Below are positions 31,310 through 34,330 of a stretch of 64,000 bases of DNA, in pieces. A program made the translations under genes and the position numbers. The stretch's first letter is position 1, and the number at the start of each line of letters is the position of its first letter. A model generated the notes under the pieces. That model had not been told where the DNA came from, searched no databases, and worked only from the letters and a program-made list of their open reading frames with translations. Origin of the DNA: Lachnospiraceae bacterium (GTDB lineage Bacteria; Bacillota; Clostridia; Lachnospirales; Lachnospiraceae); the NCBI GenBank assembly GCA_029338675.1, contig JAQYAV010000103.1, forward strand, positions 56,768 to 120,767, given 5' to 3'.

Positions 31310-32359
31310 CTATTTTTCCCGTAATTGAACTTTATTACGAGCAGCACGTTTGCGTTGATCATCTAAGTCTGCATAATGTTTTCTTGTAGTATTAACATCT
31401 GAGTGACCTAATACATCTGCAACAAGATAAATATCAGAAGTTTCCTGATACAAAGCTGTACCATAAGTACTACGAAGCTTATGGGGTGTAATATGCTTAA
31501 GTGGAACAGCTGAAACAGAGTACTTTTTAACAAGATTTTCAATACTACGTACACCTAAGCGTTTTCGTTGAGAAGATAGGAAAAATGCCTTTTCGTGACC
31601 TTCAACTGGAATAATCTTTTTACGTTCTTCATAATATGCTTTTAGATAAGCAGAAGCCTCATCACTAAAATAAACGATAGCTTCCTTACCACCTTTTCTT
31701 GTAACTCTAATACACATATTTTCGAAGTCAATATCCTTAATATCAAGGCCAACACACTCGGATATACGAATACCGGTACTTAACATAAGAGTTAAAAGAG
31801 CTAAATCGCGATTTTTAGCCTTCTCATGGTGAAGTAATTGATGTTTAGTCAAATTAGAGCCATATTCAACGTTATCAAGGAAATTAGCAACCTCAGCCTC
31901 ATCCATTCGTGTAATTGGCTTATCATGTAATTTAGGCATATCTACCTTACTAATAGGATTTTGGCTTACATACTCATGTTTATACAAATATTTGTAAAAT
32001 ACGCTTAATGAGGCTAATTTACGCTTAATTGTAGCCTTATTATTAGTATATACACGTCCATTCTTACGATACATCTGCAAATAGTCTAAATAATCCTCAA
32101 TAAGCTCATGATCAATTGAAGATAGTACATCTAATGAAATATCTTTTAAAGAGTTAAAATTTGCATCTGTATATGAATCAAAAACATATTCATAAAAGCA
32201 TTTAATATCTCTAGCATAAACTAGCCTAGATCTGGAACTATGAGTTTGCTGTATACCTCTAAAAAACTTCTTAACATAATCAGGAAGTTCGCTACAAATT
32301 TTACGGACAAGTTCAATATTGTTTAATTCATTTTGTTGATGATAATTAAATTCCTGCAT
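31310..32359 (-). CDS. Tyrosine recombinase, XerS/XerC-like
   Basis: Core ATGIRISECVGLD, HITPHKLRSTYGT, LGHSDVNTTRKHYA; start moved to ATG 32359 after GGAGG. Confidence 0.9.
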   Translation of the reverse strand: MQEFNYHQQNELNNIELVRKICSELPDYVKKFFRGIQQTHSSRSRLVYARDIKCFYEYVFDSYTDANFNSLKDISLDVLSSIDHELIEDYLDYLQMYRKNGRVYTNNKATIKRKLASLSVFYKYLYKHEYVSQNPISKVDMPKLHDKPITRMDEAEVANFLDNVEYGSNLTKHQLLHHEKAKNRDLALLTLMLSTGIRISECVGLDIKDIDFENMCIRVTRKGGKEAIVYFSDEASAYLKAYYEERKKIIPVEGHEKAFFLSSQRKRLGVRSIENLVKKYSVSAVPLKHITPHKLRSTYGTALYQETSDIYLVADVLGHSDVNTTRKHYADLDDQRKRAARNKVQLREK

Positions 32360-32395
32360 AAAAACCTCCAAAGTAGTAGTGTATTACCTAAATCT

Positions 32396-32429
32396 AATTA
32401 TTCGCAAAACCATAGTTTTATGAATAATT
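32396..32429. promoter_or_regulatory. Candidate dif-like Xer recombination site
   Basis: AATTATTCGCAAAAC-CATA-GTTTTATGAATAATT: 15-nt arms matching 13/15, 4-nt centre; in the 5' leader of the Xer-like gene at the strand switch. Confidence 0.6.
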
Positions 32430-32440
32430 TGTATAGGAAT

Positions 32441-32469
32441 AGTATACTGCAAAAGCCTATATAAATCAA
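32441..32469 (-). promoter_or_regulatory. Putative sigma-A promoter of the Xer-like gene
   Basis: On - strand TTGATT (32464-32469), 17 nt, TATACT (32441-32446). Confidence 0.6.
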
Positions 32470-32511
32470 GGGTTTATATAGCTTTGAGTACTTTTTTAAA
32501 AAATTTGTGCA

Positions 32512-32562
32512 TAAAATAAATGCAATAAATAACTAAAATAATTATCTATTGCATTTATTTTA
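32512..32562 (-). terminator. Perfect 16-bp inverted repeat downstream of rluD (terminator-like, AT-rich)
   Basis: TAAAATAAATGCAATA (32512-32527), 19-nt loop, TATTGCATTTATTTTA (32547-32562). Confidence 0.55.
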
Positions 32563-33519: not shown

Positions 33520-33615
33520 ATTATATCCTCAAAAAAAACAGAAAGAATAAATTGTTATTTAGACTATTCTAAATATCTTTTATGTAATTTAATCTAGAAA
33601 TCAAACTATTATTTG

Positions 33616-33721
33616 ATTAAATTTATTATAGGTTAAATTTATTTTAGGTTATATTTATCAAATTTATTTTAGATTAAATTTATTTTATATTAAATTTATT
33701 TTAGATTAAATTTATTTTAGG
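33616..33721. repeat. AT-rich 16-bp tandem array (consensus ATTAAATTTATTTTAG, about 6 copies)
   Basis: Direct reading; lies between lspA 3' end and rluD 5' region. Confidence 0.85.
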
Positions 33722-34330
33722 TTAATTTGTTTCATCTTCCTTAGAAGCATCTGAAATATTATGTTTAGATGAATTTAATTCTTGATAATTTGAAGCATCA
33801 GATGCACTTTTTACATTAATTTTATTAGCGTTAAATAATAATTCAATTTCTTCGTTGTCATATTTGAAAATAATCAACAAACCAATTATAAGCATACTAA
33901 CAACAACATATATATCTGCTACATTAAAGATAGGAAAATTAATTAATCTAAAATCAAAAAAATCAATTACATATCCATTTGAAAATCTATCAATTAAATT
34001 ACCGATTGCACCTGATAATAATATAACTATTGCACCTCTAATAGATTTAAATTGTTCAAATTTCAATGATCTTATATATATATATCCACAACCAATCATA
34101 ATAATGACTGTTACAATCAAAAATAAAATTCTTTGTCCTTCAAGCATTCCCCAGGCCATTCCTTCGTTTCTAATGTATGTAAAATTAAAAACATCTTTTA
34201 TAATTGGTTTTGTTTCAAACAATTGAAATTTAGTTTCAACAATATGTTTTGTTAATTGATCAATGGCTGTTAAAAATGCAATACATAATATAGGCAAAAA
34301 ATAGATTTTTGTTTTCGATTTATTATTCAT
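33722..34330 (-). CDS. lspA: Lipoprotein signal peptidase II
   Basis: DQLTKHIVETKF, FTYIRNEGMAWGML, GAIGNLIDRFSNGYVIDF, FNVADIYV. Confidence 0.94.
   Translation of the reverse strand: MNNKSKTKIYFLPILCIAFLTAIDQLTKHIVETKFQLFETKPIIKDVFNFTYIRNEGMAWGMLEGQRILFLIVTVIIMIGCGYIYIRSLKFEQFKSIRGAIVILLSGAIGNLIDRFSNGYVIDFFDFRLINFPIFNVADIYVVVSMLIIGLLIIFKYDNEEIELLFNANKINVKSASDASNYQELNSSKHNISDASKEDETN

Follow-up and report, generated by a model that had tools for sequence, protein, structure and literature searches.

What is the imperfect palindrome that lies in the leader of a Xer-like recombinase gene in this Lachnospiraceae bacterium, and which recombination system does it belong to? The stretch of DNA that was analysed, called the window here, is 64 kb long. 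A first-pass annotation made from the letters alone had read the palindrome as a candidate dif-like site and had compared it with difSL, the site of the single recombinase XerS in streptococci and lactococci. In the surveys consulted, XerCD/dif is the norm for Firmicutes beyond these two groups (PMC5357621, PMC3025954), and a literature search, with most subscription journals outside its reach, found no paper on a dif/Xer system of Lachnospirales. The palindrome is very probably the site at which chromosomes fused into a double ring are separated. Below we go through the evidence for this, the explanations that compete with it, and the known systems that it resembles.

The palindrome and its surroundings

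The palindrome is present exactly as it was first quoted, in the leader of the recombinase gene: it reads AATTATTCGCAAAAC-CATA-GTTTTATGAATAATT at 32396-32429, with arms that are complementary at 13 of 15 positions and a 4-nt spacer, and it lies 36 bp upstream of the recombinase ATG at 32359 (minus strand). The conserved core within it (32399-32426) is 28 bp long and has an 11-6-11 layout, meaning two 11-bp arms around a 6-bp centre. It is an intergenic imperfect palindrome of low GC in the size class of about 28-31 bp, as is typical of dif/Xer sites. The features of the region are as follows.

31310-32359, minus strand: Xer-type tyrosine recombinase, 349 aa, XerS-like (Pfam, NCBIfam, alignments, AlphaFold2)
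31500-32500, no strand: GC-skew switch from plus to minus, replication terminus, with the cumulative maximum at 31587 (GC skew)
32365-32369, minus strand: ribosome binding site GGAGG of the recombinase gene (sequence)
32396-32429, no strand: full imperfect palindrome with 13/15 arms (inverted-repeat scan of the window)
32399-32426, plus strand: dif-like recombination site of 28 bp, TATTCGCAAAA-CCATAG-TTTTATGAATA (conserved core, genome uniqueness)
32441-32469, minus strand: candidate promoter TTGATT-17-TATACT (consensus scan only)
32512-32562, minus strand: inverted repeat with 24-nt arms, 92%, downstream of an rluD-type gene (inverted-repeat scan)

Palindromes as good as this one are common in the AT-rich window, so the case has to be made by comparison and not by palindromy. 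Counting arms of 15, spacers of 3-8 and at least 13 matches, there are 25 palindrome windows in the 64 kb versus 2.5 expected from a Markov model, where some longer hairpins are counted in several registers. We consider this palindrome to be real because it is conserved, because it is unique in its genome and because it sits at the GC-skew switch. A dif should occur only once, as the first-pass annotation pointed out, and the search for a second copy found a single site in the genome even when up to 3 mismatches were allowed.

The inverted repeat at 32512-32562 is probably the terminator of the rluD-type gene, separating that gene from the recombinase gene. The candidate promoter comes from a scan in which consensus matches were no commoner than in shuffled sequence; it hints, weakly, that the dif-like site might lie between the transcription start and the ribosome binding site. 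With a promoter upstream of the site, binding of the enzyme might also lower transcription of the recombinase gene, which is speculation. Further along, between the rluD-type gene and an lspA-type gene, there is a degenerate AT-rich tandem array (33607-33732) of 7 copies of a unit of approximately GATTAAATTTATTTTA.

The recombinase

The start of the recombinase was taken as the ATG at 32359, which has GGAGG in front of it. The protein matches Pfam PF00589 with a score of 119.7 bits, and alignments place all six catalytic residues (R-K-H-R-H-Y) at R198, K222, H293, R296, H319 and Y329. The best NCBIfam model is XerS (NF003462) with 221.5 bits, below its cut-off of 267. An AlphaFold2 model has a pLDDT of 86.9 and a pTM of 0.59 and gives a global fold match with a TM of about 0.43; the orientation of the domains is uncertain, and the global match is therefore uninformative on the subfamily. 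In a tree built without streptococcal XerS and without XerH sequences, the Lachnospirales recombinases form one clade (100/98), with two proteins of another family as its sister; the clade and this small sister group fall on the XerS side (96/95), and XerC and XerD stand apart.

An orthologue of this XerS-like protein is found in 171 of the 196 Lachnospirales genomes. In four further genomes, all of one genus, a divergent homologue is encoded, and the site lies about 100 bp upstream of it. In two genomes of genus g26 (G118 and G201; loci L264 and L265) there is an extra XerS-like paralogue that has no dif-like site nearby.

Conservation of the site in the genus and the order

Leaders of orthologous genes were compared across the genus. 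Each of the 30 loci in which gene and leader are both present, one of them being the window's own, has the site with the core TTCGCAAAACTCAGGTTTTACGAA; its distance to the start codon ranges from 20 to 184 bp, and the flanks drift. A half-site matrix made from the genus finds an 11-6-11 site in other families as well, often away from the recombinase gene. The named loci place the order as Lachnospirales, with Roseburia, Anaerobutyricum, Enterocloster, Oribacterium, Lachnoanaerobaculum and others, and a strong site is present in 50 of the 65 named loci of at least 12 kb (score >18; the maximum in shuffled sequence is 8.5). Searching whole genomes with the pattern TTCGYWAAA-N6-TTTWRCGAA and at most one mismatch gives matches in 146 of 196 Lachnospirales genomes, mostly as one copy, with exceptions; the reversed pattern matches only a minority of genomes. 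Some genomes that carry the gene have no match to the pattern, and variant sites account for some of these and not for all.

Over 114 distinct sites the consensus of an arm is TATTCGYWAAA, in which T3, C5, G6 and AAA are nearly invariant. This consensus is common to both arms, and the sites are slightly asymmetric. In the window the right arm departs from it, with ATGAA instead of RCGAA. The centre CCATAG of the window's site reads on the strand opposite to the recombinase gene, and the identical centre in another locus (L030) reads with the gene, so that the arms of the window's site appear to be exchanged relative to the gene in comparison with that locus. Variant sites near the gene or near the skew peak were seen in L160 (~12400), L242 (9943), L251 (9908) and L216 (5321); examples of such variants are TATACGACAAACCCGAGTTTTTCAAATA in Blautia-like loci and TTCTTGAAATTCCTAGATTTGAAGAA in L160. 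The variants suggest that site and enzyme may have evolved together.

A location just upstream of the gene, which is what the window suggested at first, is thus the rule in the window's genus and does not extend to Lachnospirales as a whole. In other families the site is found from kilobases to more than 1 Mb away from the gene. As an example, in G148 the site is at 1,587,356 and the gene at 454,076; a second hit in that genome, at 1565342, has a low score and is probably due to chance.

XerC, XerD and FtsK

The first-pass annotation had suggested a single-recombinase module, had proposed to look for a XerC/XerD pair and had named a canonical XerCD dif elsewhere as a point that would speak against its reading. 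XerC above cut-off is found in none of the 196 Lachnospirales genomes, but XerD is encoded in the window's own genome with a full score above its own cut-off (G000:C153; L001:1450-2382). That genome has no dif of the B. subtilis type at up to 3 mismatches, and its FtsK has a gamma domain (92.7 bits).

With XerC missing in the order and XerD above cut-off in this genome, the site could be the substrate of two proteins, with XerD bound to one arm and the XerS-like protein standing in for XerC at the other. The slight asymmetry of the sites fits this as well. We regard such a division of labour, a variant that is compatible with our preferred explanation, as unlikely: both arms share the one consensus, unlike XerC/XerD sites with their differing arms, and XerS and XerH, which are similar in size to the protein studied here, act alone. 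In two genomes (G043 and G045) the XerS-like protein is the sole match (E up to 1e-3), which is a weak test of the absence of XerD. Two nearly equal arms around a 6-bp centre fit with one enzyme on both arms, and it is likely that a single recombinase acts at the site.

The retained XerD probably has a different task. In B. subtilis, XerD is reported to unload SMC, and by analogy the XerD found here could perhaps act at the terminus in such a way.

Position at the replication terminus

In the window the cumulative GC-skew maximum lies within 0.8 kb of the site. Of the 70 loci of at least 19 kb, 61 have positive skew to the left of the site and negative skew to its right, and in 22 the skew peak lies within 500 bp of the site, versus 4 for random positions. 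In several loci from other families (L138, L139, L141, L146, L149, L047, L057, L155 and L163) the distance between site and skew maximum is only 20-40 bp. Nine control stretches from the same genomes have no flip in the sign of the skew. Site and skew peak fail to coincide in some loci.

In nine complete genomes, dnaA and the site are separated by an arc of 0.38-0.50 of the chromosome, which makes them roughly opposite to each other, even where the recombinase gene is distant from the site. The arcs are 0.46 in G006, 0.38 in G057, 0.48 in G062 and 0.49 in both G148 and G228; from rounded lengths they are about 0.5 in G073 and G158 and 0.47 in G166. The complete genome G080 has a site with zero mismatches near the origin and a site with one mismatch at an arc of about 0.5, near the terminus.

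Filamentous-phage genes at the site

In four cases, genes of filamentous phages (inoviruses) that have no integrase are found at the dif-like site, and in two of these they lie between two copies of it, one intact and one modified. The first is L255:5215-10109 (G112:C67), where one intact and one modified dif-like copy are 4.9 kb apart. Between them there is a Zot-type ATPase (PF05707), a replication protein of the G2P type and a coat-like gene; no integrase was seen. A sister genome (L092) has the site empty, with an amidase and a D-Ala-D-Ala carboxypeptidase flanking the single copy, and in the alignment of the two loci the match of the right flank starts 3 bp before the site. The second is L233:1704-9344 (Hungatella sp. 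UBA5385), with a different inovirus-like element of 7.6 kb that includes a Zot-type gene; its two dif-like copies, which lie within a 48-bp direct repeat, are alike in left arm and centre and differ in the right arm. Elements at dif in Legionella and Neisseria are likewise reported to lie between one intact and one modified copy (PMC9765430), and the L255 and L233 copies match this reported pattern.

In the remaining two cases, L260:199-4888 (from the window's genus) and L231:1-4076, Zot and replication genes adjoin a site that is seen as a single copy, each locus being truncated on the phage side; these are probably elements of the same kind. Taken together, integrase-less filamentous phages appear to enter Lachnospirales chromosomes at the dif-like site; the phage genes, with the empty site of the sister genome, are an indirect sign of recombination there. 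Free gut inoviruses related by their Zot protein (~45%) have no complete dif copy, and two of them have one strong half-site. Second sites in three further loci were considered as phage insertions and set aside: in L145 ordinary chromosomal genes lie between the copies, those of L051 are separated by 318 bp, and L163 has a weak second copy.

Other explanations of the palindrome

The palindrome could instead be an operator that controls transcription of the recombinase gene, bound by the recombinase or by another regulator, with no role in recombination. Its place between the candidate promoter and the ribosome binding site is what such an operator would have, and it is kept upstream of the gene in the window's genus. 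In other families, however, the site departs from the gene and is still at the GC-skew switch, which is why the operator was rejected; a single copy per genome at the terminus, with phage genes inserted there, would also be unexpected of it. We hold this to be very improbable, and autoregulation alongside recombination to be possible.

Even less credible is a recombinase that belongs to a mobile element or an inversion switch, with the palindrome as its attachment or inversion site. A tyrosine recombinase with an adjoining palindrome would suit it, and several other tyrosine recombinases of the mobile-element type are encoded in the genome, but the gene is spread through the order as core genome in one clade, the window contains no surrounding element, and the site is single and at the terminus. 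Least likely of all is that the palindrome arose by chance in AT-rich DNA, for which one could cite the many similar palindromes in the window, or that it is part of an attenuator, riboswitch or other RNA element of the leader. An Rfam search gave no match, the sequence itself is conserved, the distance to the start codon varies, and in other families the site is found at a distance from the gene, which for the RNA element too was the reason for rejection.

Proposed mechanism and significance

We are confident that 32399-32426 is the dif of this chromosome and that the adjacent gene encodes its recombinase, which would resolve chromosome dimers in a system found throughout Lachnospirales. The dif-like reading of the first-pass annotation is in this way strongly supported, by the leaders of the orthologues, the usual single copy, the terminus, FtsK-gamma, the lack of XerC and the apparent use by phages. 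The computed basis is conservation, uniqueness, position at the terminus, intact catalytic residues, XerC absence, FtsK-gamma and phage genes flanked by intact and modified site copies; what we infer is that the enzyme binds and cleaves the site, resolves dimers, works without XerD and depends on FtsK. Homologous recombination would produce a chromosome dimer in which the site is present twice, as a direct repeat, and FtsK would pair the two copies at the septum. The XerS-like enzyme would bind both near-identical 11-bp arms, cut at the edges of the 6-bp centre via Y329 and swap the strands, giving two monomers. Filamentous phages without an integrase would use the same host dif for entry into the chromosome. 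The fuller statement, that all Lachnospirales have, in place of XerC/XerD, a lone XerS-like recombinase that forms a clade of its own and works on a 28-bp dif particular to it, and that integrase-less filamentous phages integrate through this system, is in our view probable.

Lachnospirales are a major component of the human gut flora, and this large order lacks XerC and apparently uses another enzyme and another site. The site can serve as a marker of the replication terminus in the assembly and orientation of Lachnospirales genomes, and its 28 bp offer filamentous phages, and perhaps genetic tools, a defined place of entry. The system is another case for asking how a single recombinase does the work of two, and the retained XerD raises the question of its role.

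Comparison with known systems

The closest comparison is XerS/difSL, as proposed at the outset, and it holds in part. The proteins are similar in length (349 aa here, 356 aa in XerS), XerS is the nearest NCBIfam model and the tree places the recombinase on its side; the site is at the terminus, XerC is lacking, and in the window's genus the site is next to the gene. The differences are that the recombinase scores below the XerS cut-off, is about 27% identical to XerS-family proteins, forms its own clade and has 10 residues between the catalytic His and Tyr, versus 9 in the aligned XerS and XerD sequences, and that XerD is present in the window's genome. The site has 28 bp with a 6-bp centre, whereas difSL is described as spanning 31 bp, its arms being unequal and its centre 11 bp long (PMC5357621); the difSL arms were compared as quoted in that paper. 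By the tests applied, the Lachnospirales system is XerS-like but not XerS, and a candidate for a previously undescribed variant of dif/Xer.

XerH/difH of Helicobacter and Campylobacter shares the inner core AAAA-N6-TTTT with its central hexanucleotide, gene and site are often linked, and the proteins are similar in length (PMC2731167, PMC3325230). The Wolinella difH AAAACCATAATTTT and the corresponding AAAACCATAGTTTT of the window are one base apart. In Helicobacter, mutating bases in this core abolished difH recombination, and the core found here includes those essential bases (PMC3325230). The outer arms differ, TTCG/CGAA being those of the window's system, and the XerH profile matches the window's recombinase with an E of 3.8e-13, weaker than XerD (2.8e-31) and XerA.

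XerL/dif of Legionellales is similar in being order-wide and missed by homology, in having its site near the GC-skew maximum with gene and site possibly distant, and in mobile elements between wild-type and modified site copies (PMC9765430). XerL is a separate recombinase group, set beside the present one by its description (PMC9765430). XerCD/dif of E. coli and B. subtilis has the same 28 bp in an 11-6-11 layout, the terminus position and FtsK-gamma, but Lachnospirales have no XerC, and their arms are alike where those for XerC and XerD are distinct. The phage elements, finally, resemble IMEX filamentous phages such as the vibriophages, with Zot-type and replication genes, no integrase and insertion at the host's dif; here the hosts are Lachnospirales, and the recombinase would be the XerS-like enzyme (PMC4246890).
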